A stretch of DNA of 64,000 bases from Nymphaea colorata (taxonomy: Eukaryota; Streptophyta; Magnoliopsida; Nymphaeales; Nymphaeaceae). Positions 641-59,079 of the stretch are shown here, in pieces (the first letter of the stretch is position 1; each line of letters opens with the position of its first letter). Under the pieces are notes generated by a model. That model did not search any database, was not told where the DNA came from, and saw only the letters and a list, made by a program, of their open reading frames with translations. Made by a program: the position numbers and the translations under genes. The stretch spans positions 21,262,848-21,326,847 of the forward strand of contig NC_045141.1 in NCBI RefSeq assembly GCF_008831285.2, given 5' to 3'.

Positions 641-644
641 AATG

Positions 645-17832: not shown

Positions 17833-17884
<52 letters not shown>

Positions 17885-28600: not shown

Positions 28601-29204
28601 TGGGGTCCTTTCATTTAGCTCCTGGATGAAGCTAGCGTTTATGTGCTTCCGATTTTATCTTCTTTTGTTAATTTTTTAATAGATGCAGCTAGAAACAGAA
28701 AGAAAGGGAAGAAGAAGAGAAAAATAGAAAAAAGTGAACAGAAAAAAAGTAGAGAGAGAACACGGAGGTGGTATGGGAGAGAGAGAGGGGGTACCTTGTT
28801 CATCGTCACTTAGTTTTTAACTTTCCCACCACGAGCGACTGCTATAAGGAAAGAGAGTGAGATATTGTCGTTCCATCAGGGTCTTTCTGTGAAACTGTAT
28901 ATATATCTGCCATGAAATCCGTATCTGTAACTTTCTTTTCTACATGTTTCCGACTTTGCAATTTTGCTGCTTTCATTTCTTATGCTGTAATCTTCCTGAA
29001 ATTTCCACAGGAGAATGGATGTTGGTCGATCGACGTGCAGGTTTTGGTCTGGTTAACAGGTTTGATAAAGACGATGTGCAGAAATGCATGATTCGTTGGA
29101 GGACAGGTATTTGTAACTTGGAGCTCTTCTCTGCAGAAAGACCAGTTTCGAAGGATGCTCCCTTGCAAATTTCTCATGAATATGAGGTAATACCTCTCCA
29201 GTAG
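19657..29204 (+). CDS. HGL1: GH31 heteroglycan alpha-glucosidase, tandem copy 2
   Basis: Twenty-two exons match copy 1 one for one: 19657-19899, 20030-20098, 20178-20315, 20428-20545, 21067-21149, 22071-22166, 22486-22654, 22767-22909, 22993-23079, 23210-23395, 24268-24435, 24932-25052, 25139-25208, 25400-25487, 25566-25686, 25918-26111, 26501-26609, 26805-26966, 27602-27704, 28082-28255, 28344-28489, 29011-29204. The product is 993 aa; a Gln codon before the stop makes it one longer. The nucleophile motif is intact (WNDMNEPAV, Asp345), as are the acid/base [14 protein letters not shown] and GPDIGGF. One replacement looks derived: [12 protein letters not shown], where copy 1 and the family have [12 protein letters not shown]. 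Probable role: hydrolysis of alpha-linked glucose from cytosolic heteroglycan, downstream of starch breakdown. This copy is the better candidate for the working enzyme. An in-frame ATG at 19,630 would add 9 residues. Confidence 0.9.
23050..27200. repeat. Near-identical conversion tract, GH31 copy 2
   Basis: Partner of 5,500-9,690. The left edge falls inside exon 9: four differences are visible at the start of that exon, then none for several hundred bases. The right edge falls in intron 18, where substitutions and small indels reappear at about 27,200. Confidence 0.7.
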
Positions 29205-30555
29205 AGAGAGAGCAATAAACATATTTTCAGTCAAGAACGAGTAATCAATCTTTGGGGCAACCTGCTCGTTCATTTATATGCATGTTTATTAAAGAATAAG
29301 GCCCTTCTTCCTTAGATGCTGGGATCTAGCAAACATTTACTGTTGATTCGTTGTTTACTTCTGTATCGAATTGTGAGAGGGGTACTGGTATTTACCTCAT
29401 GATTTACTGCATGAGAAATTGAAAGAGGCTCTCAGAATCCTCTTGTTTTGTTGATCAATGGGCCAATGATTTTGGACGAAATCTCACAGTATGAGAGATG
29501 TATGTGATAATCTTCAACAAAGAGACAGGATGATTAATGAATATGTTGCCGAAGTGGATCGAACTTGAGACGAAATGACAATGATTGGCCTGTTTCATTT
29601 CCTTTATTTCTTTCATCTGTTGGCTAATTTCATGCATCACCGTGATGCTCTTTTGAGTAAATCATGGGAATTACCTGACAGATTTAAATAGTTCGGATGA
29701 ATTCTTACGATAAAGAAGGATCCTAAGTAGAAACAAAGAAAAAACTTTATATATTTCCTTTGAAAGGAAGAAGAAAAGAGAAAAAAAATAAAAGAATGCG
29801 AGGCCAAGGTTACCAAAAATTCTGAAGTAACTTGCAGAAAATAAATAAAAAATATTGGATGTTAACTGTCTTCTGCCACATACCTGCTTTTGTCTAGCAA
29901 GCTCTGGAGACGTGGGTTTCGGCATCGGAGTGTTATCTATTTATGAGGATTGGCTTATGATCTTCCTGGTACCAAGGTTTGAGTCCCTCCATTACACAAA
30001 AGAAAAGGAAGAACGACAAAGCTAGAGTAGAATTAAGAATTTGAAAGGCAGCCTTTCGTTTGCCTTGAGTAGGGCAATGGGATAAGTCAGGACAATGATA
30101 GGTAGGACTAAGTAAAATATCATATCAAATTTAAGAACATTCCTTCTCTTGGCAACTTAACATATCAACAGCAAGTTGATTACAAAAAACCATGGATGAA
30201 CCAGGTCATAGATACTACCAGAACCTTTTGGATCCGATTTAACCCGATTAAAACTGCGTTATTCTTGCAATACAGAAACCGTGTAGTGCACACCTTCAAA
30301 CCATATTAAGCCGGTCGATCCCTTCTTTTTTTACTGACCTTCTCTTTGTACTTAGCTGATTCAGATCTATCCCTCGAATTGAAGCTAGGAATACCCTTTA
30401 ATTTGGCACAGGCTTTTTGTGATTGTAGTGACAACTTTTAATAAAATTTTGAAGTTTTATGTTTGGCTATAGGTCAAAAGATTTACGTTAAGAGAAGGCA
30501 ATGCATTTTTGGTTTATTTCCTTGAAAAGAAAAGTTAGAGTTCATGAATCATGAA
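29205..30555. other. 3' flank of GH31 copy 2 up to the TSR2 leader
   Basis: No gene is seen. It aligns with 11,668-12,955; about 30,054-30,400 holds DNA with little counterpart in the first unit. The homology ends just before the TSR2 promoter. Confidence 0.6.
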
Positions 30556-30741: not shown

Positions 30742-32676
30742 ATGGACGCGTTGAGCAGAGGTGGAGTGGGGAGGCTTCCTTCCTCTCAGAGGCTGCTGCA
30801 GGCTGAGTCCCTCTCTCTCTTCGCAGAGGCCGTCCATCTGGTTCTCTCCGGGTGGACCGCCCTGCGCCTCGCTGTCCACAACGAGTGGGGTGGTGGCAAC
30901 TCCCGCCAGAAATATGAACAATTGGTCCAAGACCTTGTCTCCTGGTTTATTTCGTCAAATGGTAAAGATGGTCTTCCTTCTTTCTACATGCGAATGCCTA
31001 TTCCTTTTCTTCTTCTGCTTGGTTGCTGGCATGATTATGTTACGTGGGTGCCTGCAGCTTCTTTTTTCCTCTCTCATTTTTCTCCTTCGTATGTTGGTGA
31101 ATGAGTTTTTGTTGATTTGGGGAAGTTGACGGTCATGCTGCGATTGATTTTTGGCTTATGTGTTTGAGATAGATCAGTTGGTGATGCATGTTTACGAACC
31201 ATGCTACCTCTTCGTTTTAATATTTTGATACGTATGTTGTACCTAATCTGGTGTGTGATGTTCAAAGCATCAGAAGGAGCATTTGGAATATTTGGTGAGA
31301 TATGAATGGGCTCAAAATCTGGGAGCTTTTTTTTGTGCATCACAGAGATATGTAAAAAGTTTCAAGAATGCAGAGCCTATTTCTTGATCAGATCAACTTA
31401 TGGGTTAAATTATGCTTGTTTGGTCAAGATTCTGATCATTTGCAGAACTTGTGATTGTGTCGCGCCCCTTTCTCGCATCATTCATAATATTCAAGTGTAA
31501 TTCCAGAAACAGATATTTTGTATTCAAAGGATAAGCAAAACGGTAGAGAACCTACCCTTTCTAGAGTGAAGAAAAACCGAGGAGGTGAGTGCGTCAAGCT
31601 CGCATATAATCTACAGCGGCCAAATTTTCTTACTTTTTGTCTTCTCGAGGCATCAGTATGGAAGACCTTCAAGGAAAAAATGACAGGGGTGAGCCAACCA
31701 CCAAGCTTAGCGGGGATGACAGTATGGGAAACAGGGTCATTTTTGTTATGCAAAAAAATTTTGAGAAGAATTACTGCTAAGGTAATCTACAACAGACAGA
31801 ACATCTAAAAGAAGTATCATTTGAATTGAACTACCATGAAAATGTTTGTTTCTATAGGATCCAAGAATTTGCTAATTTTGAAGCTCATAGGCCTTGTTTA
31901 TTTTCCTGATCTTTTGCTGCATAAATGGAAGTGTGTATTAAAGTACAATAATGCATGAATTGGGCATTTTGGCTGCAAAACAAGCAGCTCAGACTTTATT
32001 TTGTCCGGAAGGTTGAATACTGCGAAAGTGGCCAACCTTCTTCCTGCTTACAATGTTGCTTTATCCTGAGAAATGTCTTCACATCTTAGAAATTAGAATT
32101 AGATTGGAAAATTTTCCGAATATGAGATCTCCAACTTATTCACCTGGGTGGTCAGACCTTGATTTTGAGGCAGCCAAATTTGTAATTGATTTCATTTGCC
32201 TGATATGATGACGCCAGAGAGAATATGAACATTTTGTTTTCTCTTGGTTTTCAGCTCCCATTCATATAGACGAGTTGGAAATGATGCTTGATGAGAAGAT
32301 GGTGCTTTGTTTCAATACAGAAATTGAAGATGGTAGTGTTGAGGAGGTATGCATATTCTGAACCATTTCCTTCTACCGAGTTGAACTTCTCTGGGTTATT
32401 CTCTACTACGAAGCTCTTATGTGGCAGATGTCTTCTTCTTTCTAATTAAAGTTACCACATTGTTGGTGTGTGTGGCTGCCTTGAAAAGTCTTGTCCATGT
32501 GCACCCAAGTGTACTAATTGGTTATGATGGAGCAGGTGGCGGAACAATTAATGACTATACATGAAGATTGTCTTGAAGGGAATTATGACTCGGTGTCTAA
32601 GCTGAGGAAACCTTGCAAGGAATGGCTGCAAACTTTTCAAAGCAAAGAGGTAAATTTCAACTCACTGGTTATGCAA

Positions 32677-32752
<76 letters not shown>

Positions 32753-33790
32753 GCTTTTGTGGAAGTCACCCTTGTCCCTTGTGAACACCATAGAGATATG
32801 CTGAACTTGAAATAGGAAATGCAGTTGCATTTTAATCTTACAGTTGAAGAAGTCCATCTATTAGTGCTTTTGCTTAGGATGTGTCGTTACGTTATGCCAG
32901 GAATTTTGTCAGGCCTTTTCGTGTATTAGGTCAAGGTGAGATAGCTGCTCTTAGAATTGAAGAGGTTAGACAAGTTGATCATATGGTCTGAATAAACTGC
33001 ATCACAATCAGCCTGATACAAAAGCATTGGCCGAGGAAATGCATGAGGCAAAAAGAACTCTCGTTTCACTAGAGTTCTTCTATCTAGAACAGTTAACATG
33101 AATTGCCCTCGATGATGTAAGCTGCCTTTTTTATGCTCCAATCAATGAGCACTTCTATGTCTAGGAGGGAATGAACATAGTAAAGATCAGTAGTATGAAC
33201 TCCATTCAGTTACAATCTCAAATGCTATCTGTTCTTTGCTGGAGCTTTGCTTGTTTCGGTTGTCATATTTCCTGGGCTCAATTTAACATCATATCAGGTA
33301 ACTGAATCACATTTTCAATTGAGTGACGCTTCTAGGAGGTATATGCTGGTATCTGATTGTAAGCTAAGGAGGCTTTTAGCGGGAAGGAGCAGATCAGCTA
33401 CCCATTAGGTCCAACTTCCGACTCATCTTTGAATACTCCTATGAGCTTTGTGCCATCAAGTAAGATGGAATATACCCAGCTTTTCCATGTTGCATTACTT
33501 AGGAAACAAAAGAGGATTAAATAATTTGTGGCCTGAGTTTTAGCTACTGGCTGATTAAGTCTTTATATAAGTATGTAATGGTGGTAATTGGCAAGTATCT
33601 TCTGTTCAACTCACTTTCTCCCTTTCTGTGTGCCTATAGTTTTGACATGATCTCCTTGTGCCAGTTAATTGACAGGAATGCGGATGGAAGTTCTGACGAG
33701 GAATATGAGCCGGCATTAGATGATGAATTGGATCCGCTGCAAGATGAGCCAGGAGATGTTGGTAGATGGCCTGTTATTTTTGCAGGGTGA
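30742..33790 (+). CDS. TSR2: Pre-rRNA-processing protein TSR2
   Basis: Four exons: 30742-30961, 32255-32346, 32536-32649, 33665-33790, with consistent phases, giving 183 aa. Residues 21-75 hold the TSR2 core with the WGG motif (Trp49-Gly-Gly), then the IDELEMMLDE and NTEIEDGSVEEVAEQL helices typical of the family, and an acidic C-terminal part. In yeast TSR2 is needed for 20S pre-rRNA processing and acts as a chaperone for ribosomal protein eS26; a nuclear/nucleolar role is expected here. The frame is open upstream of the ATG, but the TATA box at 30,663 favours this start. The last residues do not look like family ends, so the final exon may be spliced further (candidate acceptor near 33,844). 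Intron 3 carries a (CT)n(TA)n tract. Exon 3 plus part of intron 3 is duplicated in front of PLR-A. Confidence 0.85.
32679..32748. repeat. (CT)n-(TA)n microsatellite in TSR2 intron 3
   Basis: About 11 CT units run straight into about 24 TA units. The duplicated TSR2 piece at 38,933-39,021 has the same compound repeat with the lengths reversed: long CT, short TA. Confidence 0.9.
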
Positions 33791-35727
33791 AATAGTGAGT
33801 AGGCTGAAGGTCTCTCGATATCCTGTATGTATTTGCCTTACTGCAGTCTCAAGGCATGCACGATGCTTGATGGAGGATGGTTGTCTTCTCCATCAAGTCA
33901 AGATGAGTCTTCAGCGAAAGTGAATTTGGCAGAGTTCATGGCCTCAACTATAGGGCGCACGATTTTAGCCTCGTTTCACCAAACGAGAGTTTCCGCTTTT
34001 CTCTTCTTGTCTGTCGCATTCTTTCGCTGTATGCTTTCTCGTCCTTTTCAGGGAAGGGACCAACTTTCACCAGAATCATTGGGTTAAGGTACATCCAACT
34101 GGTTTCGAAGGACAATGGTAATGAATTTCTGCAGTTTAATTTGCGAAGTTCATCTCTTTCCTCCGTTTCTTTGGAGTCGCAGCGGTCCTTGTTCAGAGAT
34201 TTCCTACCTATTCGTTGGTTGATTATTGGCTTAACGCAGGAAACTGGAGCTCCAAGGCTTGAGATTTAGGTGGCAATTCGTTCTTCCTATTCGCGTTTGA
34301 TGCCGTTTCTCGTGCGACTCAGAGAGAATTCCAAGAGAGCGCTACCAAACTAGGAGTTCGCATTCGATTTAGACCTTTTCATCTCGCGGATAAAATCAGG
34401 AAAATGGAGCTAAATTCCTGATCTTTGACCGCTATAATTGACGTTTGTTATTGAAGGAAACCACGTTTTGATCTTGGGATCTAAAATCTCAATCTTGTGC
34501 TCTCACTATACAGGTTTTTGTATCTAACATGTAGCCGTTTGGAACTCGTACGTTTGCAATGCACGTCATGCAACTTTCTTCCTGTGCTGTCAAAAAATTG
34601 GAGCGCGATGTAACAAATCACAGCACAATGTATTTCAGAAGTAAAGGTTTCGTGCTTACTCGAGAAACGTAATCAAATCCTAGAAGGTAGATATAGCTAG
34701 GTTCTTCAATCAGTTTATGTGCATGATGCATGAGAAGGGCCTTATAATCTATAGCATTTCAAAGACCTTACACCACAGATACATTTTATCCATATTGTAA
34801 ATGAAATAAGGGAAGCACAAAAAGGTTGGTCAATAAATGCAAAGTTTCTTGTGCGATTGTATTGCTTCCGACCCATTCTTCCATCATTTCTAGAGCAACA
34901 ATTCACGTCTAAAGTTCGATACTGAGGGTTTCTTCAGAGCTGTTCTTTTCCACCAGCAATGGCCTCTCTCTCTCTCTCCCTCTCTTTCTCTCTCAATCAA
35001 ACATACACACACACGCACACACATATTGCTTTTGCTGCTGCGCGTACTTGCATTATTTTGAAAATACACTCTTTGAAATAATTCAACACGTTAGGTGTGT
35101 TTTATAATTGTCGGTAGTAGGTAAAGAGTCATTGCTAAATTGATAGAAATAATGATCTCGTGAGCTTTCAAATTAGTAACGGAAAATTTTAGGTGATTTT
35201 AATATGAAATATCCAAAGCTTAGCTAAGTATGGTGCTATGATCACCTACAGTTAGGCATTTCTCCAAATCTGAAACTGAAGCTGCTACTTTGTAAATGTC
35301 AAGAAAGCATGGCTCAACTCATGAATGTTTTTACATATATAGTCATTTGGTCAAACTAATAAAAAGATGGCATGCATTATTTACTTGATGATATATTCAA
35401 GATGCATGTGTTTGTATTCACAATCTAACAATTAATAAAGTTTGGTGATCTTGTTGACTGTCATTCTCCGAATTAAATGCCTGGGAATCCTGCTCCTCTT
35501 TATGGGTCCCGTGGTTCAAAGGTTGGCCTGTACTCAATTGACCATAAAAGTTACACCGACAGAGTCACCACTGATTAAGCAATTCAAAACGACAAGATTT
35601 GACATTGATATGACCATAGACATATAAAGCCAATTTGGATCCCAACCTTGTTTTGAAAGTGACGTACCAGGTCGGGCGAAACAACAGTTTCATTAAATAT
35701 TTTCGATTTGGAACGAAGTCATACAAC
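33791..35727. other. Intergenic between TSR2 and tRNA-Ser
   Basis: The first 300 bp may be TSR2 3' UTR or a further exon. The rest shows no coding frame with family resemblance. It has a (CT)n/(AC)n-rich patch near 34,966-35,025 and AT-rich DNA. I see no mobile element with clear ends. Confidence 0.5.
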
Positions 35728-35809
35728 GACGCTTTGGCCGAGTGGTTAAGGCGTGTGCCTGCTAAGTACATGGGGTTTCCCCGCGAGAGTTCGAATCTCT
35801 CAGGCGTCG
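35728..35809 (+). tRNA. tRNA-Ser (GCT anticodon)
   Basis: An 82-nt class II tRNA. The 7-bp acceptor stem (GACGCTT with AGGCGTC, one G-T pair) closes it. The D arm has GGCCGAGTGGTTAAGGC, which doubles as the A box. The anticodon loop CTGCTAA gives GCT. A long variable arm follows, then a T arm with GTTCGAATC (B box) and discriminator G809. A T-run at about 35,823 fits a Pol III terminator. The sequence is close to the plant tRNA-Ser(GCT) I remember. It lies about 60 bp before the first PLR repeat block. Confidence 0.95.
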
Positions 35810-35869
35810 TCTTAAATGCCCATTTTTATACTTTTATATCTTCCTAGGCCGACAACTACTCTCTTTCTT

Positions 35870-36886
35870 GCGACCTAGAAGGGCTTAGTGGCCCCAGTTT
35901 TTTTATTTCGCCGAAGCACATCCCCTGTCTCACTGGAAAAAAATATGAGGGATTTCCAGCACTTTTTCCTTTTATTTGGGCAATCAAATCATTTTCTTCC
36001 GCTTGCTCATTGGGTACACCAATGATGAAACTATTTTGCCATCCAGTACTCTTTAATTTAACTTATATGCAGACATACAACTCGTACCCAGTCTGTGAAC
36101 TGTCGAGGGCAGGGGCGGAACCAGAATTTTCTTTAGGAACGAGTCGGCAGTCCGACTTCTGGATCCGAATAGGGCTAAACTGAATTCTAATACAAAAAAT
36201 ATATTACATAATTAAAAAATATTATTTTTTTTCAATGTAAAAAAAAAAAAATTCATTGGCTAGGGTGGGGCCATGGCTTAAGCGGGCCGCCCCTTCCCTC
36301 TGCCCCAGGTCGAGGGTAGACCAGTGTACTCAACTCCTATGTTACGGTTCTCCATCGGCAATTCCTTTCCCGACGGCTCTGACCAGCTTTTGGCGATGGC
36401 TAGGGCCATCGGGAAAACTTTAAAATGTTGCAGTGACCATTTCCATCTCATTGAAGTAGCCTGCCTAGGGTGTTATTGCAATCGATCGTATATCCGGGCC
36501 AATGCATTGGATCCTATCACAGTTTGGACGGTCCAATAATAATTACATGTGTATTATATACTAGTACTTTGATTTAATATGAGATGAACAAGAAGCGGTT
36601 CCATAGTTTTTGGTTCATTTGCATAATCAAATGTTCACTGATTATTCAATGTAAGATTATCAATGGCAAAACTCTTCAACAAATTAAGCTAACAACGAGT
36701 TGCAGATCAAGCAAGCGACAATCATACAGCTTTACTTTTAGCATTATCATCAACAGTCACATAGTAGGAAAGGGACAGTACTCCTTTCCTTAGCATCACG
36801 ATAAGGTAGCTTTTATTTCTAAAATCTCAACAGCCCTTCTAATTTCTTCATCCATTCCATACAATACACACGCTCATGCGGGTGCA
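35870..36886. repeat. PLR downstream block, copy A
   Basis: This flank on the 3' side of PLR-A is repeated at 39,512-40,060 (copy B) and 41,413-42,241 (copy C). Shared landmarks are GCACATCCCCTG, the AACTGTCGAGGG site and ATTGCAATCGATCGTATATCC. It has no coding frame. Copy A carries a MITE insertion that the other two lack. Confidence 0.85.
36110..36308. mobile_element. hAT-type MITE with proven empty sites
   Basis: A 199-bp element with imperfect inverted ends (CAGGGGCGGA at left, CTGGGGCAGA read inward from the right) is flanked by the 8-bp direct repeat GTCGAGGG at 36,102-36,109 and 36,309-36,316. The paralogous blocks have a single GTCGAGGG at 39,756-39,763 and 41,658-41,665 with no insertion. 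The interior is AT-rich and non-coding. Eight-base target duplications and CAGGGGCGG-type ends are typical of hAT elements. Confidence 0.9.
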
Positions 36887-38776
36887 TCATAGATAGCGTT
36901 TTAGACAATCTTCAACCCTTGTATATACAACTTCAGGGTACAACTTGGAGGCCTCTTCTCCATCCTCTCCAATTTCAAAGTTGGTAAGGCAACCCTCATG
37001 GAATATGTGGTAGTAAAGATCTATCGTTCCCTGCACTATCTCGTCTGCAGCTGTGAGAGAGAGTGAGAGAGAGAGAATGATCAGTGAATTAATGAATTAC
37101 TTAATATTGTAATACAGTATTCCTTGATTTGCCCAACATGTCCAATTAACTTCTCATTGTGTTAATTCGCCTCGCAGTTATTTTATACTTACATGTTCAT
37201 TTAACTTTGCACTAACTTGCTTTGTGTACCATTTCTTACCGTCGAAGATTTTCATGACAGAAGACTTTCAGTTCGGTGGAAAAACGTGCAAGCTAGTAAG
37301 AACTTGTAAGATTTTCGAAACCTCTAGAAAATATTGCATGATTTGAAAACGTTAGTACTAAAAGTGACATGAACTCGTCTTAAAACCCTAATAAAGTTAA
37401 AAAAAATAGATAGAAAGATAAAAAGGAAATTATAAAAATATAAAATGTACATATTTTTGTAAAAAGAAATTAAAATACCCCAACTTCCCTTTGTTTCACG
37501 CACATAAGTAATTTGTTCATGCACATCAGTATGCACGCAACTTGATGCTAGTCACATGAATCGAACAGAAGTTGATTTTGTACCCACTTTTCTTTGAAGC
37601 AAGGAACTCCTCCTCGGAGATGGAAGTCTTCTCTAGTCGTTTTCCTATGAGATTCTCCCATATCTCCACCATCTCCATTTGTGACATGATATTTTCCGGT
37701 TGACGGAGATAAAGTGTCTTGTTGAGAGTCCGGGGGTCGTCAGCGGCCTTGATTGTATATGTGCCAACGTCATCCTCATCCACAAATACAGCTAAAAGAA
37801 AATATGCAAAGAAATGGCTAATTAGTGTACCAGTTGAAATAAACGATATCGGTCACTGAGATAAGCAAAGGAACACCTGCAGGCGCTTGACCCTGTCACA
37901 ATTCAATCTCTGGGAGGAGTTCAGATCTCTTATCCTTATCATATTTGTTAAAGAACTCATGAAGAAACGATCTCCTTTCAGAATATTGTTGTTATAGATA
38001 AGGCTAATCAGATGGATATGAAAAGAAAACGATATTCTTGCCTGAAATCTTACCCTTGATGCCGCCATCCCCATGCAAATAGATGCGATCCCGTGGTGGT
38101 AGCAAGGTTCTGGGCTGGCACAGGCCTCCGACGAAGTATCCGGCACAGCAGTTGGCGGAGATGTAGGTGTGAGGGATGCCGGCGTCCTCAATCGCCTTCC
38201 GCGCAACCATCTTCTCCTCAAGTGTTCTTCTGAAAGGTGAAAGTACTGCATGCGCCATGCGAGCAAGATCCATTCCATACTCGGAAGGCACAAACCTCTG
38301 TGAATTAAAAAAAAAAAAAAAAAAAAAAAATCTTGTTTCAGCCTCTTTCTTGGTTTGGTGGTACCGAATTCCACGCAGAGTTACCTTTCTTGCTTTCTCA
38401 TTGAATTTGACCTCATAAAGAGGTTTTTTTTTTTATGTGTATATACCTTAATGTTCCCGGCTTCTTTGATAGCATCAACAAGCTTTAGTTGCATCAAGGT
38501 ACTGTGGCCGCGGTGATGAACACCGGACACTGCACAAACGACGACATCGACGAGCTTCACGGCATCGACGAGGCTCCGGTGGTCGGAAAATGAGGCCTCG
38601 ACGAGACGAGCTCCCTGCTGCTTGAAGTCCAGCAGAATTTCAATCTTCTCGATGTCTAGGCCAATCTCCCGCCTCTGGAGAACGTAGGTGGGGTGGCCGA
38701 GCGCCAAGCTTGCCTTCACCAACCTCCTCCCCATGTACCCAGAGCCACCCACGATCAGGACTCTGCTCTTCTCCAT
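36887..38776 (-). CDS. PLR: Pinoresinol-lariciresinol reductase, copy A
   Basis: Four exons on the minus strand: 38447-38776, 38054-38297, 37588-37791, 36887-37050, total 313 aa with consistent phases. The atypical-SDR NADPH motif is GGSGYMGRR at residues 10-18 (Met where the other copies have Ile). The catalytic Lys is Lys139 in EEKMVARKAIE. The DEDDVGTYTIKA segment and the NFEIG end match PLR. PLRs reduce pinoresinol to lariciresinol and then secoisolariciresinol with NADPH, in the cytosol. The loop before the catalytic Lys reads SPFRRTLEEK instead of the usual PGRxTFDEK, one residue longer. The upstream promoter is gone: about 20 bp before the ATG the sequence becomes a duplicated TSR2 piece. 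Gene body closest to PLR-D, 3' flank closest to PLR-C. Probably a silent or rewired copy. Confidence 0.85.
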
Positions 38777-38794
38777 TTCTTTTTTGCTATTGAT

Positions 38795-38929
38795 GGCGGA
38801 ACAATTAATGACTATACATGAAGATTGTCTTGAAGGGAATTATGACTCGGTGTCTAAGCTTAGGAAACCTTTCAAGGAATGGCAGCAAACTTTTCAAAGC
38901 AAAGAGCTAAATTTCAACTCAGTCGTTAT

Positions 38930-38999
<70 letters not shown>

Positions 39000-39371
39000 A
39001 AATATATATATATATATATATGTGAAAGCATTTATGGAAGGCACCCTTGACTCTTGTGAACACCATAGCGATATGCACCATAGCGATATGCTGAACTTGA
39101 AATAGGAAATGCAGTTGCAATTTAATCTTACAGTCGAAGAAGTCCATCTTTTAGTGCTTTTGCTTAGGATGTGTTGTCACGTTATGCCAGGAATTGCAAT
39201 TTAATCTTACAGTTGAAGAAGTCCATCTATTAGTGCTTTTGCTTAGAATGTGTCGTCACGTTATGCCAGGAACTTCGTCAGGCTCTTGCGTGTATTAGGT
39301 CAAGGTGAGATAGCTGCTCTTAGGATCGAAGTGATTAGACCAGTTGATCATATGTTCTGACTAATCTGCAT
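38795..39371 (+). pseudogene. Duplicated TSR2 exon 3 and intron 3 fragment
   Basis: From TGGCGGAACA the sequence follows TSR2 exon 3 (32,538-32,649) and then intron 3 to about 33,010. The exon donor GAG|GTAAAT has changed to GAGCTAAAT, so it would not splice. It has a long (CT)n at 38,933-38,996, a 15-bp duplication near 39,061-39,090 and a 79-bp tandem duplication at 39,115-39,193/39,194-39,272, neither of which is in the parent gene. It lies head to head with PLR-A and replaces its promoter. Confidence 0.88.
39115..39272. repeat. 79-bp tandem duplication
   Basis: Two adjacent 79-bp units (39,115-39,193 and 39,194-39,272) of TSR2 intron 3 sequence, differing at a few bases. The parent at about 32,824-32,902 has a single copy, so the duplication happened after the fragment was copied. 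Confidence 0.85.
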
Positions 39372-39447
39372 CACAATAGGACTTTACATGAACTTAGGTG
39401 AGACATAATGAACTTAGAACCAGAAAAACCATTCTCTAATGCATTTG

Positions 39448-39492
<45 letters not shown>

Positions 39493-40069
39493 AGTATCGT
39501 CTACTGCATTAGAGAGCTAAAAAGGCTTAATGGCCGCCAATTCTTCATTTCATCTATGCACATCCCCTGCCTCAGTGAAAAAATATGTGGGTTTTCCAGC
39601 ATTTTTTCCTTTTATTTGGACCATCATTTTCTTCGCTACACTCCACTTTAATCCCCTTGCTCATTGGGAACACCAATGGTGAAACGATTTTGGCATCCAG
39701 TACTCCTTAATTTAACCAATATGGAGACATACAACTCACAACCAGTCTGTGAACTGTCGAGGGTGGACCAGTGTACTACTCCTATGTTATGGTTCTCCAT
39801 CTGTGCCGTCGGCAATTCCTTTCCCGACAGCTCTGACCAGCTTTTGCCGACTGCTAGGGCCACCGGGAAAACTTTAAAATGTTGCAGTGACCATTTCCAT
39901 CTCATTGAAGTAGCCTGCCTAGGGTGTTATTGCAATCGATCGTATATCCGGGCCAATGCATTGGATCCTATCACAGTTTTGACGGCCCAAAGGGATAAAA
40001 TAATAATTACATGTGTGTACATACTAGTACTTAGATTTGATATGAGATGAACAAGAAGGGGTTCCATAT
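39372..40069. repeat. PLR downstream block, copy B
   Basis: Starts with a (GA)n run at 39,451-39,490 preceded by sequence also found at 41,110-41,165. The body matches 35,870-36,580 and 41,413-41,960. At about 40,065 it jumps straight into PLR intron 2 sequence, showing that PLR exons 3 and 4 of this unit were deleted. Confidence 0.75.
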
Positions 40070-40620
40070 TTGTGGGAGGAGTTCACATCTCTTATCCTTT
40101 TAATATTTGTTAAAAAACTCATGGAGAACGGTCTCCTTTCAGAATATTGTTGTTATAGATAACGCTTATCAGTTAAATATGAAAAGAAACGGATCTTCTT
40201 GCCTGCAATCTTACCCTTGATGACGCCATCCCCGTGCAAATAGATGCGATCCCCTGGTGGTAGCAAGTTTTTAGGCTGGCACAGGCCTCCGACGAAGTAT
40301 CCGGCACTGCAGTTGGCGGAGATGTAGTGAGGGATGCCGGCGTCCTCAATCGCCTTCCGCACAACCAGCTTCTCCTCAACTGTTCTCCTAAAAGGTGAAA
40401 GTACTGCATGCGCCATGCGAGCAAGATCCATTCCATATTCCGAAGGCACAAACCTCTGCCTTTTTTTTAAAAGAAAAAAGAATCTTGGTTCAGTTTGTTT
40501 CTTGGTTTGGTGGACCGAATTCCAAGCAAAGTTACCTTTCTTCCTTTCTCATTGAATTTGTCCTCATAAAGAGGCATTTTTTGTTTTTTTTATCTGTGCA
40601 TACCCGGCTTCTTTGATGGC
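40070..40620 (-). pseudogene. PLR copy B fragment (exon 2 only)
   Basis: Only exon 2 is complete (40,215-40,455, 241 bp), with flanking intron DNA and the last 17-18 bp of exon 1 near 40,603-40,620, where the donor has been lost. Exon 2 is in frame, with catalytic Lys in VEEKLVVRKAIE, but one codon is missing (GIPHYIS against GIPHTYIS). Exons 3, 4 and nearly all of exon 1 are absent. It cannot encode a reductase. Confidence 0.88.
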
Positions 40621-41412
40621 AAAAGTGGGAGCTCCCCAGCCTTTTCAACTTGAGCACATCTGAAATAGCATCAACTTTTGATCCCCAAGACTAGATGACT
40701 AGATGGTGTGATGATTCCTAAACAAGCTTTGCGGACTTTATTGTAGAATTATGATTATGTAGCACCCACATTTTGAAAATTCCAAGGCTTCCTTCAATAG
40801 TTAATTCTAAAACAATATATAACTGCAACCCCTTAAGATCTAGCAAGAATATTGTGAAACCCCAAGAAGCTCTGCCTTGAAATCGTCCACATCTCCTCCA
40901 TTCCTTTTGCCTTAGCATGCTAAACACTTAACATTATATACATAAGCAGATCAGCATGTGCTAAAGCACAACAATAGAAAATTCATGGTTGCTTCATTAA
41001 ATCCATGGTACCCAATGAATGATCCTTAGTGAATATGCTTTATACATCTACCTCTTTGGATTATCTGACTGCCATTGTAGACCATGCTTCATAGTTTATA
41101 TAGGGATCTAGATGAGACATAATGAGCTTAGAACCTGAAAAACGATTCTCTAATGCATTTGCAAGAGAGAGAGAAAGGGAGAGAGAGAGAGAGAGCTATA
41201 CGTAACTGTTCCTGGTAAGTTGATGACAAAAGAAAAGTTACAGCACATGGAAAGACGAAAGAAGGACCACATGGTATGGATAACATAATCATTATACCAT
41301 GTCACTTTTATGAACATGGGGTTTCTTACTCTTTTCCTCTTTCATTTCCGCCCCTTACGTGAGTAACTGTTCAGCCAAATAGTTTTACCATATCAATATC
41401 GTCTACTGCATT
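40621..41412. other. Unassigned DNA between PLR-B and block C
   Basis: It breaks into the PLR-B exon 1 remnant at 40,620. No coding frame or terminal repeats were recognised. From about 41,110 it resembles 39,390-39,450, followed by a short (GA)n tract at about 41,163-41,195, then about 200 bp missing from block B. Confidence 0.5.
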
Positions 41413-42241: not shown

Positions 42242-43928
42242 TCACAGATAGCGCTTTAGATAATCTTCTACCCTTGTATACACAACTTCAGGGTACAAAT
42301 TGGAGGCTTCTTCTTCATCCTCTCCAATTTCAAAGTTGGTAAGGCGACCCTCGTGGAATATGTGGTAGTAAAGATCTATCGTTGCTTGCACCTTCTCGTC
42401 TGCAGCTGTGAGAGAAAGAGGGAGAGATCAGTAAGTTGATGAATTACTTGATTATGACACTGTATTCTTTGTCTTGCCCAACTTAACTAAGTTCTTATTG
42501 AGTCAATTCGTCTCGCCGTTCATCAGTTTATCATAGCTTTACACTAACTTGTTTTGTGTGCCATTTCTTATTTGTTATGGAAGATTTTCATGACAGAGCA
42601 CTTTCAGTTCGGTGGAAAAACGTACAAGCTAGGAAGAACTCTGTAAGATGTTGAAAACCTCCAGAAAATATTGCATGATTTGAGAACGTTAGTCTTAAAC
42701 GTCACGTGACTGTTCTTAGCGCTGCAGTCATGTGAAGAATAGAACAGAAGTTGATTTTGTACGTACTTTTCTTTGAAGCGAGGTACTCCTCCTCGGAGAT
42801 GGAAATCTTCTCTAGTCGTTTTCCTATGAGGTTCTCCCATATCTTCACCAGCTCGATTTGAGACATGATATTTTGCGGTGGCCGGAGATATAGTGTCTTA
42901 TTGAGAGTCTGGGGGTCGTCAACGGCCTTGATTGTATATGTGCCAACGTCATCCTCAGCCACAAACACAGCTAAAAGAAATACGTAAAGAAACGGAAAAT
43001 TAGTGTACCAGTTCAAATTTCGTTATCGACCACTAAGATGACCAAAAAAACGCCTGCTGCAGCTTCAGTACCCTATCAGAATTCAATCTCTTGGAGGAGA
43101 TCGTATCTCTTATCTCTGTAATATTTGTCAAAAAACTGATGGAGAAACAGTTTCCTTTGAAAATATTGTTGCAGATGAGGCTCATCAGATGGATATGAAA
43201 AGAAAAGGATATTATTGCCTGAAAGGCTGAAACTTACCCTTGATGCCACCATCCCCATGCAAATAGACGCGATCCCTCGGTGGTACCAAGGCTTTGCCCT
43301 GGCACAGGCTTCCGACGAAGTATCCCGCACTGCAGTTGGCGGAGACGTAGGTGTGGGGGATGCCCGCGTCCACAATCGCCTTCCTCACAACCATCTTATC
43401 CTCAATTGTTTTTCTAAAATTTGGAAGTACTACACTCGCCATGTGAGCAGGATCCATCCCAAACTCCGAAGGCACAAATCTCTGTAAATTAAAAGAAAAA
43501 AAGGTTCGTATTTCGGTTTCCTTCTTCAAAGTTGCATTTATTGCTTTCTCATTGAACGTGTCCTTATAGAGAGGCTTTTTTATGTGTATATACCTTAATG
43601 TTGCCGGCTTCTTTGATGGCATCAACAAGCTTTAGTTGCATCAAGATACTGTGGCCGCGGTGATGAACACCGGACACTGCACAAACGACGACATCGACGA
43701 GCTTCACGGCCTCGACGAGGCTTGGGTGGTCGGAAAATGAGGCCTCGACGAGACGAGCTCCCTGCTGCTTGAAGTCCAGCAGAATTTCAATATTCTCGAT
43801 GTCTAGGCCAATCCAATCTCCCGCCTTTGCAGAACGTAGGTGGGGTGGCCGAGCGCCAAGCTTGCCTTCACCAACCTCCTCCCTATGTACCCAGAGCCAC
43901 CCACGATCAGGACTCTGCTCTTCTCCAT
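42242..43928 (-). pseudogene. PLR copy C, frameshifted
   Basis: Exon equivalents on the minus strand: 43594-43928, 43238-43481, 42767-42970, 42242-42405. Exons 2-4 keep splice sites and phases. Exon 1 is 335 bp instead of 330: a 5-bp direct duplication (CCAAT CCAAT on the plus strand, near 43,810-43,820) shifts the frame after about residue 40 and leads to a stop. Exon 3 also reads VFVAEDDVG where the others have VFVDEDDVG. The promoter region is split from the ATG by an LTR-like insertion and its TATA equivalent is degraded (TGTAAATA). A shortened product starting within exon 1 would lack the nucleotide-binding motif. Most likely a recent pseudogene. Confidence 0.82.
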
Positions 43929-43965
43929 CTTCTCTCCTTCCTCTAGCTAAAAGGGAAGGGCACCA

Positions 43966-44471
43966 TGATACCCAACAGGGGGGGGGGAAGAGAGGAGAGA
44001 TTCCTTGTGGCAGCACAGCAAGAGGAGAGAAAGAGAAGAGGAAAGGAGAGAAGAAAAAGAAGAAGACAAGGAAGAGAAGGTTGCGAGCACTTGGCTCGAG
44101 CAAGATTCGATTCTAATGAAAAAGCCAAACGCATCTCCTCTCAATCCATCGGTGATATTTTCTTGTTTTCTCATATAGTTTTGATGAGTTATTATTGTTT
44201 GAGGGTTGGCTTTGTGTAGCTCATCGTAGGATAACTTATATCATTGATTATAGTGGATTGAGTTTGGGTCGTAGTACCCCGTAGTTTTTATCCTCATTAT
44301 TTTTAAGGGGTTTTTCACGTAAAAATCTTCTTGTGCAGTTTGTGATTGTGATTACTTTGCTTGGATTGCTTGGTCGTTGATTTGTTGCTCATTACATGAT
44401 CGACTTGAAATATATTTGATTGTTGAATCAATTTTAGTAGATTGGTGTTCTATCCATTTTTATCCCAACAT
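43966..44471 (+). mobile_element. Solo LTR-like fossil (copia type) in PLR-C promoter
   Basis: Compared with PLR-D, about 500 bp of extra DNA separates the ATG from the promoter equivalent (44,487-44,510 against 48,465-48,490). The right part has features of a copia LTR: a GGGGTTTTTCACGTAAAAATC stretch and an end in CCCAACA exactly at the junction. The left end is unclear and no target duplication was found. It is old and incomplete or solo. Confidence 0.5.
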
Positions 44472-44479
44472 AGGTCTCC

Positions 44480-46140
44480 TTGCTCAACTTTATTTACAGC
44501 TAAACGACATTGAAAACGGCATGCCCATGACATTGTCATGTTCGCCGCCGATGTGGAGAGCTGAGCCCCTAGGATATTAAAACAAAATAAAAGAAAAGCA
44601 AATGAGCAAGCAACCGTCCGTCCAAGTCTGGCTGTTCTTGATGGTATTCAAGTTCTACTTCTCTTCTAAACATCCAACGTATATATATAAAGAGACAGAA
44701 AGAGTTTTCCCTTAAACCAAACAATTGACTTAAGGGTACATAACAGGTTAGACCGCTTTCTCAGCATTATATGCACGGTTTTTAACGCGTGGCTAAACAA
44801 ACTGGGGATCTGATCTTTCATGATATAATCTTTTACCGGATCGAGGCTCAACCCAAAGTCCCATATGTTGAGACCCAAAATTGTTGATGAGAAAGGCCAA
44901 AAAAGACTTCGATACTTGTCCCGGTATAGGCTGGTTTTGGATCGACGGCCACCTCTGTGGGAGATGGATCCAGCCGTCTAGTTCTTGCACCAGTGTTTTA
45001 TAGAAAGAATCAGATCTGGGATCTCATGGATCACGTGCAGTTCAAAAACTTGTGGACCAAACCCTCCCATCCTGTCACTGGAGGAGGCGAAAGAAGAATG
45101 GCAAAATAAAGAGAGAGAGGAAGATAATTAAGCTAAGCTGGTCAAAGAAGAATGGCAAAAACCATGTTCCCACGTTTTAATCGGCTGGACAATTTTTTAT
45201 TATTTTTATTAGAGGGGTCTTTCGTTTAAGTCAATAAAGTCATTCTAGTATATAACACTTAGTTCATATTCAGGGCTGCACAATTAGTTGAGCTAACTTG
45301 ATCTCAACTTTCACTAGGTTAAGCTCGACGAAACATAAATAAAAGTCCAGCTCGAGTTTAGTTGACAACTTGAGCTTGTAATGGGTCAAGGTTCGAATTC
45401 GGCTAGGTTAAACTCAAGTATGTTAGTTCTATCCAAACGACCTTTACTTTTGTTGCAATTTTCGAGCCTAAGTACATAAAGAAAGATCAAGTTAAATGGG
45501 GAATTGGTAAACAAGTTAAGCTCAAGTTAGGACTCAGTCTACCGAGTCAAGCTTGAGCTGCACTTCTTATACAGTTCGAGTCAAACAACATATGAGCTGC
45601 ACTTCTTATACGGTCAGCTGATATACGACCAATGTGAACTGGCCCTTGCTGTAAAAACCTACCGATTAAGGCGAGTGAAATAGCAAATTAAAGAAAGGGT
45701 ACTAGCAGGGAAGAGCAAATTATGCTTAAAGAGCACGAAAACAACATATTCAAGGGACATTCACAAAGTATCTTTGCCACCAAACTACTCCTAAAAGTCC
45801 TTTGACAAAACCCATTTTCTCTTCAAAATCTTGCTTAATTAATTGCTTTCAACTAGTTTTTAGTTTCATATTCAAATTCCATTGTTTATGATCTAACATT
45901 TTTTTTTAGCATTTATGTTGCCTACTCTTAGATCGCACGTCGCTGCTCCACTCACCTATAACGTAACCAGGATGTAAGTGTCTTAGTTGTTAGGCATGTG
46001 ATGCACATAGTTCGCTAATACCCGACTTATTGGTGTTTCTCCTCACTACCCATAAGAGCTCTTTTCAAGTAAATCAGGAAAAACTTCTTGTGCCAATTTC
46101 CTATTACTTAGGAACAAACTTGAAAGATATCCAATTAACT
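44480..46140. other. Distal upstream region of PLR-C
   Basis: No gene is seen. About 44,925-45,200 has diverged pieces of the dispersed upstream repeat (the CTTGCACCAG...TCTCATGGATC landmarks). 45,271-45,600 is a degraded relative of the hAT element at 51,071. The rest is AT-rich and unassigned. Confidence 0.5.
45271..45600. mobile_element. Degraded hAT-type MITE relative
   Basis: Begins CAGGGCTGCACAATTAGT, matching the left end of the 51,071 element (TAGGGCTGCACAATGAGT), and continues with the same degenerate GAGTCAAGCTTGAGCT-type interior. No matching right end or target duplication is visible, and the last 70 bp contain a short local repeat (GAGCTGCACTTCTTATAC twice). Confidence 0.6.
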
Positions 46141-46501: not shown

Positions 46502-48371
46502 TCATAGATAGCGTTTTAGATAATTTTCAACCCTTGTATACACAACTTCAGGGTACAACTTGGAGGCCTCTTCTCCATCCTCTCCAATTTCGAAGTTGGT
46601 AAGGCAACCCTCGTGGAATATGTGGTAGTAAAGATCTATCGTTGCCTGCACTATCTCGTCTGCAGCTGTGAGAGAGAGAGAGAGAGAGATCAGTGAGTTG
46701 ATGAATTACTTAATATTATAATACAGTATTCCTCGATTTCCCCAACTTGTCTAATTAACTTCTCATTGAGTTAATTCGCCTCGCAGTTATTTTATACTTA
46801 AATGCTCATTTAACTTTGCACTAACTTGCTTTGTGTACCATATCTTACCGTGGAAGATTTTCATGACAGAAGACTTTCAGTTCGGTGGAAAAACGTGCAA
46901 GCTAGTAAGAACTCGTAAGATTTTCGAAACCTCTAGAAAATATTGCATGATCTGAAAGCGTCAGTACTAAATGTGACATGAACTCGTCTTAAAACCCTAA
47001 TAATTTTTTTTTTAAAAAAAAGATAGAAAGACGGTTATAAAAATATAAAATGTACATATTTTTGTAAAAAATAAAATACCCCAACTTCCATTCTTTCTTT
47101 GTTTTCTAGTGCATATTTGTTTCATGCACATAACTATGCACTCAAGTTGATGCTAGTCACATGAAAAACAGAAGTTGATTTTGTACCTACTTTTCTTTGA
47201 AACGAGGAAGTCCTCTTCGGAGATGGAAATCTTCTCTAGTCGTTTTCCTATGAGATTCTCCCATATCTCCACCATCGCCATTTGTGACATGATATTTTCC
47301 GGTGGGCGGAGATAAAGTGTCTTGTTGAGAGTCCGGGGGTCGTCAGCGGCCTTGATTGTATATGTGCCAACGTCATCCTCATCCACAAATACAGCTAAAA
47401 GAAAATATGCAAAGAAAGCTAATTAGTGTACCAGTTGAAATAAACGATATCGGTCACTGAGATAAGCAAAGGAACACCTGCAGGCGCTTGACCCTGTCAC
47501 AATTCAATCTCTGGGAGGAGTTCAGATCTCTTATCCTTATCATATTTGTTAAAGAACTCATGAAGAAACGATCTCCTTTCAGAATATTGTTGTTATAGAT
47601 AAGGCTAATCAGATGGATATGAAAAGAAAACGATATTCTTGCCTGAAATCTTACCCTTGATGCCGCCATCCCCATGCAAATAGATGCGATCCCGTGGTGG
47701 TAGCAAGGTTCTGGGCTGGCACAGGCCTCCGACGAAGTATCCGGCACAGCAGTTGGCGGAGATGTAGGTGTGAGGGATGCCGGCGTCCTCAATCGCCTTC
47801 CGCACAACCATCTTCTCCTCAAGTGTTGTTCTGAAAGGTGAAAGTACTGCATGCGCCATGCGAGCAAGATCCATTCCATACTCGGAAGGCACAAACCTCT
47901 GTGAATTAAAATAAAAAATAAAAAATCTTGTTTCAGCCTCTTTCTTGGTTTGGTGGTACCGAATTCCACGCAGAGTTACCTTTCTTGCTTTCTCATTGAA
48001 TTTGTCCTCATAAAGAGGTTTTTTTTTTTATGTGTATATACCTTAATGTTCCCGGCTTCTTTGATAGCATCAACAAGCTTTAGTTGCATCAAGGTACTGT
48101 GGCCGCGGTGATGAACACCGGACACTGCACAAACGACGACATCGACGAGCTTCACGGCATCGACGAGGCTCCGGTGGTCGGAAAATGAGGCCTCCACAAG
48201 ACGCGCCCCCTGCTGCTTGAAGTCCAGCAGAATTTCAATCTTCTCGATGTCTAGGCCAATCTCCCGCCTCTGGAGAATGTAGGTGGGGTGGCCGAGCGCC
48301 AAGCTTGCCTTCACCAACCTCCTCCCTATGTACCCTGAGCCACCCACGATCAGGACGCTGCTTGTCCCCAT
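46502..48371 (-). CDS. PLR: Pinoresinol-lariciresinol reductase, copy D
   Basis: Four exons on the minus strand: 48042-48371, 47655-47898, 47191-47394, 46502-46665, 313 aa. It starts [18 protein letters not shown] rather than MEKSRVLI. The catalytic Lys139 lies in EEKMVVRKAIEDAGIPHTYIS. The rest of the body, introns included, is almost the same as PLR-A; for example the exon 2 and intron 2 stretch 47,454-47,969 against 37,853-38,374. It has its own promoter with a TATA box about 98 bp upstream. Like A it has the SPFRTTLEEK loop and CCAGYF where PLR-E has CFAGYF, so substrate preference may differ from classical PLR. Assignment to PLR rather than a related phenylcoumaran benzylic ether or isoflavone reductase rests on the overall family match. 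Confidence 0.88.
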
Positions 48372-48468: not shown

Positions 48469-48476
48469 TATTTATA
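48469..48476 (-). promoter_or_regulatory. TATA box of PLR-D
   Basis: TATAAATA on the minus strand, 93-102 bp before the ATG, followed a few bases downstream by an ACGTGG core. The homologous place in PLR-C reads TGTAAATA. Confidence 0.65.
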
Positions 48477-48789
48477 GCTTAACGACATTGAACACTGCCA
48501 AGCCCACGAAGTAGTCGATAGACCAATCTAAGGGTGTCATCATGACACGTACCAAACCCGATAGGGTCTGGTTTTATGAATTAAAGATCATTCTTTGCAT
48601 AAAGCCTTGTGAGGTTAACCAGGTGTGGGCAACTGCCGACCCCCGCCCGTGTAAATCTGTCTAAGTGTTTTATTATGAGGATGTTGGACTCAGGCTTATT
48701 TACATGTGGTGTCTACATCAGGCACACAGGCCAATGCCTTGTCCAATTTCATTGCAATAATGAAATGGTTCAGTGCTCCTCCTCAGCTA

Positions 48790-49480
48790 AAACTTTTTAT
48801 CTCCGCCGTCTACATCTTGCACCAGCATTTTGCAGAATCAGAGCTGGGCTCTCATGGATCCTCGGCAATTCAAATACTGCTGCGACGCATTTCATAAGCC
48901 TGGTAGCCGAGGGCAGGTAAGGTACTGCAGCCTTATGCTTGTCCTGTCGCCTTCCCATTTCAACCGGGGAAAAAAGAGAAGGAACAAATAAGAAAAAAAA
49001 AAAAAGAAAAAGATAAGGAACTCGGTCTTCAGTAGTCGACAATAAAGAGAGCTCCGCGACAAGTAGTAATGCCGCAGACAGGGAAAACCGTGTTCGCATT
49101 TTAAACAAGGGGAATTTCTGTCATTTTTACAAGCACATTAATTTTGGCCCATACCACTTTTGCCGTCATAAAAAGGGGGTTTTTGATTCAGCCATCAAAT
49201 GCATTTTGGTCATTTTCGGCTTAACAACATGCAACGTATCTAACCCGCTCCAGAGCTCTGCATCTGATTCCTCTACCTACCGATGGCGGGGAAGGAGATT
49301 TGAATATCAAAATTGAAAAATGGTACTAGCAGCAACTTGCGAATGACTACTCTGAGTAAGGGAACAGCATGGTAAGAAAAATATTAGATCATCAGTAACT
49401 CCATAGAATTTGGTGAAACAGAAAACTAGGGGACAATCGATTAAACAAACTTTGGAAGTGGGGGTGGGTTTACTATAAAC
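48790..49480. repeat. Dispersed upstream repeat, copy 2
   Basis: Homologous along its length to 16,780-17,470 upstream of GH31 copy 2, in the same plus-strand orientation. It has no coding frame and no recognised ends. It lies about 420 bp upstream of PLR-D. Confidence 0.6.
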
Positions 49481-49499
49481 TTGTGCAAATTTGTGCATT

Positions 49500-56470: not shown

Positions 56471-56477
56471 ATTTATA
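56471..56477 (-). promoter_or_regulatory. TATA box of PLR-E
   Basis: TATAAAT on the minus strand, about 104 bp before the ATG at 56,367, at a spacing like that in PLR-D. Confidence 0.6.
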
Positions 56478-56479
56478 GC

Positions 56480-59079
56480 GAAAACCAAAGTCCACGTACC
56501 AAACCCGGCTGCATTTGTTTCTACGGCCAAGCAAGGTTAAACTCCTGCATGTAGAGTCGTGTCACAGTTCAACAACTCTCTCTCTATATATATATATATG
56601 GAGCAGTTCAGGGAAGGTGATGAAATGCCAGTTAGACTTACTTTCCTGCTTGGGCGAAGCTGGTAGGCTTGATTGGTAGGTTTACTCGTTTTGTCCACTG
56701 TAGAGCTCACTTACCGATTACTGTGTAGGTGAAGTGGCTTAGTAAAGAAAAAGATTGGTACTGGCAGCGACGTGCAGACTAAGAGTATGAAAGCGGAGCT
56801 GCAATTTTTTCCAAAAATATTCGATTATCATGTTCAATGGAATTCGATGAAACAGAAAACTAGTTGATAGCAATTAACAAATTTTGGAAACAGGGGAGTA
56901 GTTTTGGAAATAACTTCTGTGTTTAGGAAAAAAGTAATAAAGATGTTTCCAGTTAAGGGCTTATATTTAAAAAATTTAAAAAAAGGTGTGCATGCTCCTC
57001 AACTACTTAAGGGTGGAAGGGTGGAGGGAAGGGAAGGCTGGGAGAGACTATCCTTCGTTAACGGTCAAAATTATATGAAACCCTAGTGTAGATGAGATGC
57101 AGAAGATTAGACGAGATTATGCGAATACCAAATCTAGTTTTATGATATAAGGTTCATTCCTTGCATAAAGACCCAGGCTAACATGAATCCTGCTAGGGCG
57201 CGGAGATATGTAGGGTTTTTGTGGGGATACGACCAGTGGCAGAGCTACACCAGTCTTTTAAAAATTCTTTATGGTTATCTTTAAACAGTAATATATATAT
57301 ATATATAACGTCGTGAATTAGCTACTTTAAAAATATTTGAGTTTTTTTTTTTACAAATTTCCAGTGTTTTCCCCAAATTTTAATTTTAAAAATATTTTTA
57401 TCTGATTTAGAACCGATTCAGTGGATCAGTCGGCTGATCTGGTTCCTCTTACCAGTTTTTATTGTTCGTTGTAATTTAACTACAGAAGGTATCAGCTATA
57501 CATGATAATTTAATGTCATTTACTTTCTGGATTAGTGCGCTTCTTTCTTTATGAGTCTGCCATGCTTCACTGAAATAATTTGCAGTTTGACGAAAGAAAG
57601 TTGGGAAAATGAAACAAAGGAGTTGTTGATAAATAGTTGGAGAAAAGGTTGGGAGGTTTGATAGTTCTACTCAACATGGTCTTCTTTGAACATATGTGCT
57701 TGTCACCTGTTTGGTAAATGAAACAGTTTGTAACTTTTTTATGAAACTGTTTGAAAAAATGGAGTAGATTCATAAAATATTTTATAAGCTGTTCCATAAA
57801 TCTGCCCTAACAATTTCATACTGTTCTATTTGCCAATGGACAACTAAAATATATGTTCCAAACTGCCATCTTCTTATTTCAAGAAACATGACGTGATTTT
57901 GTTTGCTTTGTAGCTTTTTAAGTATGTTTTGCGAGAACATGCGTCATTATAACGCAATACAGATGTCACCAACTGCAAACTCACCACCTCATCTCCACAG
58001 TTCTACTAAGTAAAATTCAGAACTGTATGACATCCATTTCATCCACCAAATTCATGGATCTCTAATGGTTGAAACATGCATGGATTATAAATTCTTGGGT
58101 AACTTTTGCTTCTCTCCAAAATTTTAATTTCCTTGTTGAAATGCATCAATACGAAAATTTCAAATGTGGGAAACTAAGGTCCTTTTTAGGTACAAGGCGT
58201 GTTCGAGAACATGAAGGAAAAATGTCTCAAACAAAACAACAGGAAAATGACTGGTTGAAGAATGAGTATGCATGAAGACTTCACAATTAATTCGATTCAC
58301 ATGGGCGTTATGTTCATGGGCCATATGATTAATTTGATTCATGTGGGCATTATGTTCATGGACCATATCAAGTGGAGTACTCCGCCAAGGGCAAAAGGAA
58401 ACGGGTTCTAGCATGGGCCATGCCCTGGAAACATAAACATTTGAATGTTTTTAACATGGGCATATGTGAAAATTCTCAAAAAATATTTGTTTGGCCGCTG
58501 TACAAAATTTAAAAATATTATTCGGCCATCTTTAAAAAAAAACAAAAATTCTGACTCCATCCCTATAGAGCACAAGTTGACACTATGGTGACTCTATTTC
58601 AAACCCCAAATGTAGTTTTGAACCCAACAAGTGAATTTAAATCGAATGCATCTATTGAGATTTGAGCCATGCCGTGCATTCTATTGGCAAACATGCTCAA
58701 ATATGGTTTGCTTTTACTGCTCATGAGTTAAAAGAAACAAGAATGCATTATGCAATATTAATGGGCAAGTGAATTGAATGGACTCGAATAAAAAGGCTCT
58801 GCGAACCCAACTAATATAGGATTTGGTTTGGCTTTTACTGGATCCAACTTGTGGAACATGGATTTTGGTTCCATGTAGATCGGAGCCGGTATTAAATCAG
58901 ATCCATTGACTTGGGCTTCGGTATTAAATCGGGTCCGACCCGTTGACATCCCCACAGAAACTCCGATATCCCATTTCACGTTGGTAACGGGTACATTCCG
59001 GGTCTGGATCACGAGCCCGTTGAATAGGGCGCGGAGCGAGGGAAGTTTGCTGTCTCCCGGTCGATGGGGTTTATCCGCC
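56480..59079. other. Intergenic between PLR-E and POT1
   Basis: Divergent upstream regions of PLR-E (minus) and POT1 (plus). About 56,740-56,920 is a partial copy of the dispersed upstream repeat. CAGTGGCAGAGCTAC at about 57,234 and a GACTCCATCCCT end near 58,553-58,564 resemble hAT-type MITE ends, but no single element could be delimited. 58,281-58,370 has a short imperfect repeat (TTATGTTCATGG twice). No gene is supported. Confidence 0.45.

Follow-up and report, generated by a model that had tools for sequence, protein, structure and literature searches.

A 64,000-nt stretch of the Nymphaea colorata genome (referred to here as the window) carries a tandem array of pinoresinol/lariciresinol-reductase-like (PLR) genes on the minus strand. 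One of its members, PLR-A, is joined at its 5' end to DNA derived from the neighbouring gene TSR2, which raises the question of whether this DNA serves PLR-A as a new promoter or whether PLR-A is a copy that has simply lost its own.

PLR-A (36887..38776) consists of four exons (38776-38447, 38297-38054, 37791-37588, and 37050-36887) with GT-AG introns and a start codon at 38776, and its frame of 313 aa is open, as the initial annotation had proposed, whereas PLR-B and PLR-C are broken. Exon 1 of PLR-B (42242-43928) contains a 5-bp frameshifting insertion, and PLR-C (40073..40621) is a remnant that retains exon 2 and the last part of exon 1, exons 3 and 4 being missing. We took the PLR-D and PLR-E of the initial annotation to be the array members at 46.5-48.4 and 53.9-56.4 kb (46502-48371 and 53860-56367, respectively). 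The donor sequence of intron 3 is GTGGGT in PLR-A, GTAGGT in PLR-D, GTACGT in PLR-B, and GTAACA in PLR-E. As judged from its sequence, the PLR-A protein, which matches Pfam NmrA (184 bits), is closest to solved pinoresinol reductases rather than to PCBER, IFR, or eugenol synthase: among 18 matched sequences, the PLR/PrR chains scored 411, 411, 386, and 353 bits and PCBER 291 bits, and the remaining 13 scored 256 bits or less. We take its N-terminal GGSGYMG to be the NADPH glycine motif, and K139, located within EEKMVARK, is presumably the catalytic lysine. A tRNA-Ser gene (anticodon gct) is present at 35727-35811, just to the left of the position (35872) where the homology of unit 1 to the other array units starts.

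The TSR2 gene (30742..33790, plus strand) adjoins the array on the left. It has an open frame in four exons (30742-30961, 32255-32346, 32536-32649, and 33665-33790), and its product matches Pfam WGG/TSR2 (PF10273) with 89.4 bits. A 472-bp stretch of this gene (32537..33008, plus strand), which extends from the second base of exon 3 into the first part of intron 3, has a copy ~5.8 kb away at 38794..39377 (plus strand), in the presumptive 5' upstream region of PLR-A. BLAST aligned the copy to the donor on the same strand in two pieces split by a 79-bp duplication, namely 38794-39195 with 32537-32905 (84.1% identity, 458 bits, E 5.9e-130) and 39194-39377 with 32825-33008 (91.3% identity, 260 bits, E 8.8e-71), and this similarity is far beyond chance. 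The 37-aa exon piece in the copy, taken alone, matched no Pfam family in a Pfam search, and the identity of the copy therefore rests on the DNA match. Because PLR-A is on the minus strand and the TSR2 copy on the plus strand, the two are arranged head to head. Both the presence of a TSR2 exon 3/intron 3 piece beside PLR-A and its orientation had been noted in the initial annotation and are confirmed by these matches.

The changes that the initial annotation had listed for this piece were also recovered. The splice donor GAG/GTAAAT of TSR2 has become GAGCTAAAT at 38904-38912, two tandem duplications are present at 39061..39272 (an exact one of 15 bp at 39061-39090 and one of 79 bp, 95% alike, at 39115-39272), each of which is single in the donor, and the CT tract has expanded to 64 nt (38933-38996) from 26 nt in the donor (32677-32702). 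The AT tract beside it has changed from 46 nt in the donor to 20 nt in the copy. The two tracts, both from TSR2 intron 3, together occupy 38933..39021 (plus strand) and, on the PLR-A strand, read as a TATA-like run followed by (GA)n. Together with a GA tract at 39450-39490, ~0.45 kb apart, the CT tract also forms an inverted repeat, which is perfect over 41 nt in several registers. Copy and donor differ at 26 of 284 sites in the intron part (K 0.098, s.e. 0.020) and at 3 of 113 sites in the exon part. Judging from the intron divergence (K about 0.10), the copy is old.

Upstream of the start codon, the family sequence of PLR-A continues for only about 12 nt (38777-38788), and the ~20 bp of retained leader claimed earlier is thus not borne out. 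This 12-nt leader differs from that of PLR-E by a one-base indel and fits that of PLR-D less well. The sequence switches from PLR to TSR2 between 38788 and 38794 (leader and junction, 38777..38793, minus strand), and the join is readable in two ways: it may hold 5 nt of filler, or 9 bp may have been deleted between TGG repeats across the intron-2 acceptor of TSR2.

Beyond this point, none of the promoter features seen in the relatives are retained. PLR-D (48470..48560, minus strand) has TATAAAT at -105 and a 15-nt ACGTG block, CGGGTTTGGTACGTG, at -189, and PLR-E (56471..56507, minus strand) has TATAAAT at -110 and the same block at -140. Both the TATAAAT and the 15-nt block are absent from the 700 nt upstream of PLR-A. 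In addition, the 700-nt upstream regions of PLR-A and PLR-D have no common word of 10 nt or longer, and the eight longest common words listed for PLR-A and PLR-E over the same distance all consist of AT or GA microsatellite. Because the best fits in PLR-A to the 15-nt block and to a 23-nt block have 7 and 10 mismatches, respectively, this comparison shows that PLR-A no longer has the family promoter. The initial annotation was therefore right that PLR-A has lost the upstream region common to its relatives. In PLR-B, the 23-nt D-like block is kept with 2 mismatches and is displaced by 465 nt to -585; no TATAWAW is present in the 700 nt upstream of this gene. The ~465 nt of extra DNA that separates the PLR-B leader from this block (43950-44490) may resemble a retrotransposon LTR.

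The position of the TSR2 copy relative to the array units bears on how the promoter was lost. The copy fills a unit boundary, with the PLR-A leader on one side and the 3' flank of the next unit on the other. The left end of this next unit, a 3' flank common to unit 3, spans 39395..40075 (minus strand), and the homology between units 2 and 3 (39395 with 41109) begins 17-18 nt past the end of the copy. Between the PLR-C exon 1 remnant and the unit 3 flank lies another piece of boundary DNA, 487 bp in length (40622..41108), for which no other match was found within the window (E 0.01). A kinship of the two boundary segments (38790-39395 and 40622-41109) was considered and rejected, their common words being just 8-9 nt long. 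We infer that both segments are DNA captured at breakpoints of the array. Given its location at a unit boundary, the TSR2 copy looks like junction DNA from a local duplication or from break repair. The earlier wording, that PLR-A lost its promoter to a TSR2 fragment, suggests an invading piece, while the boundary position is in keeping with junction or repair DNA; the loss itself stands.

Two origins of the junction come into consideration. A break repair that copied nearby TSR2 DNA has about even chances of being the correct explanation and fits the size of the copy and the structure of the junction. A tandem duplication whose left end fell within TSR2 and which then underwent a deletion is a serious possibility with somewhat less than even chances and would account for the donor's adjacency as well as for orientation and order. 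For the flanks of units 1 and 2, K is 0.18 (0.03) over one stretch but 0.05 (0.01) over another, and the ages are thus inconsistent. A retrocopy was rejected, as intron 3 is kept in the TSR2 copy.

Both origins have counterparts in known systems. In vertebrates, repair-mediated duplication produces short copies of nearby DNA, up to 619 bp, whose joins show filler, deletion, or microhomology (PMC2671141); the 472-bp copy from a nearby donor resembles these events, and its left join can be read as filler or as a deletion. It differs from their proximal class, in which the donor lies within 5 kb (PMC2671141), in that the donor is ~5.8 kb distant, the organism is a plant, and the copy is at an array boundary. 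In Drosophila yakuba, chimeric and partial tandem duplicates shuffle regulatory DNA, and duplication followed by secondary deletion has also been described (PMC5460883). PLR-A has the structure of a chimeric tandem duplicate in that foreign DNA is joined to it where the upstream homology ends, and it resembles the D. yakuba chimeras in that a duplication ignoring gene boundaries would have joined a gene to foreign 5' DNA. However, most of those chimeras, for which RNA-seq was used as the readout, consist of the 5' end of one gene fused to the 3' part of a second (PMC5460883), whereas the DNA upstream of PLR-A is an old antisense exon/intron piece in a plant array. The PLR-A/TSR2 junction appears from its sequence to be real and of an ordinary kind. 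No description of this locus, or of any PLR copy joined to TSR2, was found among the open-access literature matches listed.

The coding region of PLR-A has a history of its own, and comparison with the other copies indicates that the gene has a mosaic structure. In the 3' flank (36560-36699), it shares 98% identity with PLR-B and 76% with PLR-D, and the first 177 bp of its exon 1 contain 4 differences from PLR-B and 11 from PLR-D. In contrast to these parts, a tract of ~0.9 kb (37704..38599, minus strand) is nearly identical to PLR-D (47307-48194), introns included. This tract contains 5 differences in 888 columns, compared with 43 in 782 (about 5%) in four other compared stretches, where the tract boundaries were chosen after inspection and the poorly aligned intron 3 segment 37383-37587 was excluded from the latter count. 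With or without 37383-37587, none of 20000 permutations reached the longest identical run between the two genes (497 columns), and intron 2 is identical in 261 of 261 columns. The alignment shows this tract to be the product of recent gene conversion or a similar exchange. Its near identity indicates that the exchange occurred long after the copying of TSR2, the TSR2 copy (~10% divergence) being far older. Since the tract spans exon 2 together with portions of exons 1 and 3, the PLR-A frame looks intact at least partly because of the exchange with PLR-D, and the open frame is therefore weak evidence of expression.

The changes that are unique to PLR-A were also inspected for signs of selection. 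There are seven such changes in the coding sequence, six replacement and one silent, against a neutral expectation of 74% replacement, and the replacement share is 8 of 10 in PLR-D and 27 of 61 in PLR-E; PLR-C, which lacks exons 3 and 4, was left out of this comparison, and PLR-B was used as an outgroup only. The ratios gave p 0.051 for PLR-A versus PLR-E and p 1.0 for PLR-A versus PLR-D, and the test thus does not single out PLR-A. Likewise, PLR-D, in which the promoter features are present, also shows a ratio of 8:2, so that the ratio does not mark PLR-A as silent. PLR-A's own changes reveal no detectable constraint in a test that is weak because of the small number of changes and the behaviour of the control, PLR-D. 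Pairwise dN/dS values (0.37 for A-D, or 0.26 in exons 1 and 4; 0.25 for A-E; and 0.27 for D-E) speak for some constraint during the history of the PLR family. Four of the six replacements (A142, Q222, G267, and C308) fall where three aligned solved reductases keep the ancestral residue type (V/V/I, P, A, and Y, respectively). T247 is present in all three of these reductases and M15 in one. Sites specific to PLR-A are found at 38732, 38203, 37701, 37626, 37029, 36926, and 36906.

Taken as a whole, this sequence evidence suggests that PLR-A is probably an ordinary 5'-truncated chimeric tandem copy that lacks an effective promoter and is expressed weakly or not at all. The truncated end of PLR-A was joined to the next array unit via the 472-bp TSR2-derived copy, presumably either by break repair with TSR2 DNA as filler or through a duplication endpoint inside TSR2 and a subsequent deletion. 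The captured DNA then drifted, and the frame looks intact at least in part owing to the later exchange with PLR-D. Several points run counter to a silent copy, namely the open frame with its GT-AG introns, the A-D dN/dS below 1, the equivalent unique-change ratio of PLR-D, and the finding that two of the six PLR-A replacements occur in solved reductases. If PLR-A is such a copy, it would show, in well-preserved form, how tandem arrays yield copies whose reading frame survives although their promoter does not. Such a locus would also illustrate that an open frame in a tandem array is poor evidence of expression, because sister copies can maintain the frame by exchange.

The promoter swap considered possible in the initial annotation is unlikely. 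In such a swap, TSR2 intron-3 DNA would drive PLR-A in a new expression pattern. The AT tract, near -240, could take the role of a TATA-like element and the (GA)n tract could provide a GAGA-type element or the leader, and the open 313-aa frame, the TATA-like run at -244 to -232 with the GA tract downstream, and the A-D dN/dS are compatible with this proposal. In D. yakuba, moreover, 24 of 76 chimeras formed by tandem duplication were upregulated (PMC5460883). However, the TATAWAW matches in the 700 nt upstream of PLR-A lie solely in the AT microsatellite, and at least one such match occurs in 953 of 2536 windows of 600 nt, a background rate at which the TATA search is uninformative. Furthermore, the TSR2 piece is antisense exon 3 and intron 3 rather than the TSR2 promoter, an upstream ORF of 4 codons starts at -43, and the argument from the frame is weakened by the PLR-D exchange and because no constraint is detectable in PLR-A's own changes. 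The proposal that TSR2 DNA is a replacement promoter is therefore not supported, and the gain of a new promoter by PLR-A appears unlikely from the sequence features examined.

An assembly error in the repetitive array could in principle have made the join, as the near-identical ~0.9 kb of PLR-A and PLR-D is the type of repeat that confuses assembly. This explanation is very improbable: the join lies outside the near-identical stretch, the TSR2 copy runs rightward to within 17 nt of array DNA, and the differences from the donor at 26 of 284 intron sites identify the copy as a separate locus.

Transcription of PLR-A from the captured TSR2 DNA, in which the AT tract would serve as TATA and the GA tract as leader and the 5' leader would act as a trans-antisense to TSR2 mRNA, is also very improbable. 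The putative leader is antisense to TSR2 exon 3 over 67 nt perfectly and over 113 nt with 3 mismatches, and the predicted duplex has an energy of -217 kcal/mol, compared with a mean of -85 and a lowest value of -97 for 20 shuffled leaders. As in pseudogene-derived trans-antisense transcripts (PMC2984423), a transcript from the other strand of a duplicated piece would be antisense to the parent mRNA, but the antisense piece would here be the leader of another protein-coding gene. If this were true, the leader would couple the expression of a lignan enzyme to a ribosome-biogenesis factor via double-stranded or small RNA, and a single junction would have created a regulatory link in addition to a new promoter. 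Either a promoter swap or an antisense link, if demonstrated, would make the locus a natural test of intronic microsatellite DNA becoming a promoter.

Gene-fragment capture by Pack-MULE-type elements is known in plants, but the transport of the TSR2 piece to the 5' end of PLR-A by such an element is highly improbable even though an intron-bearing gene fragment adjoins the 5' end of a gene, as the 25 longest of the 43 inverted repeats in 38600-39700 all consist of CT/GA microsatellite, no terminal inverted repeats were seen among these 25, and the donor is the neighbouring gene.

Other duplications are present in the window. To the left of TSR2, the segments 1-12515 and 17600-30060 form a 12.5-kb duplication (93.6% identical), the ORFs of which presumably belong to an alpha-glucosidase gene. 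Between these two copies, 16801-17460 is 72% identical to 48809-49483, upstream of the PLR-D promoter, and this pair is perhaps a repeat element. A tandem duplication of ~97 bp, 98% alike, is located at 52469-52664.
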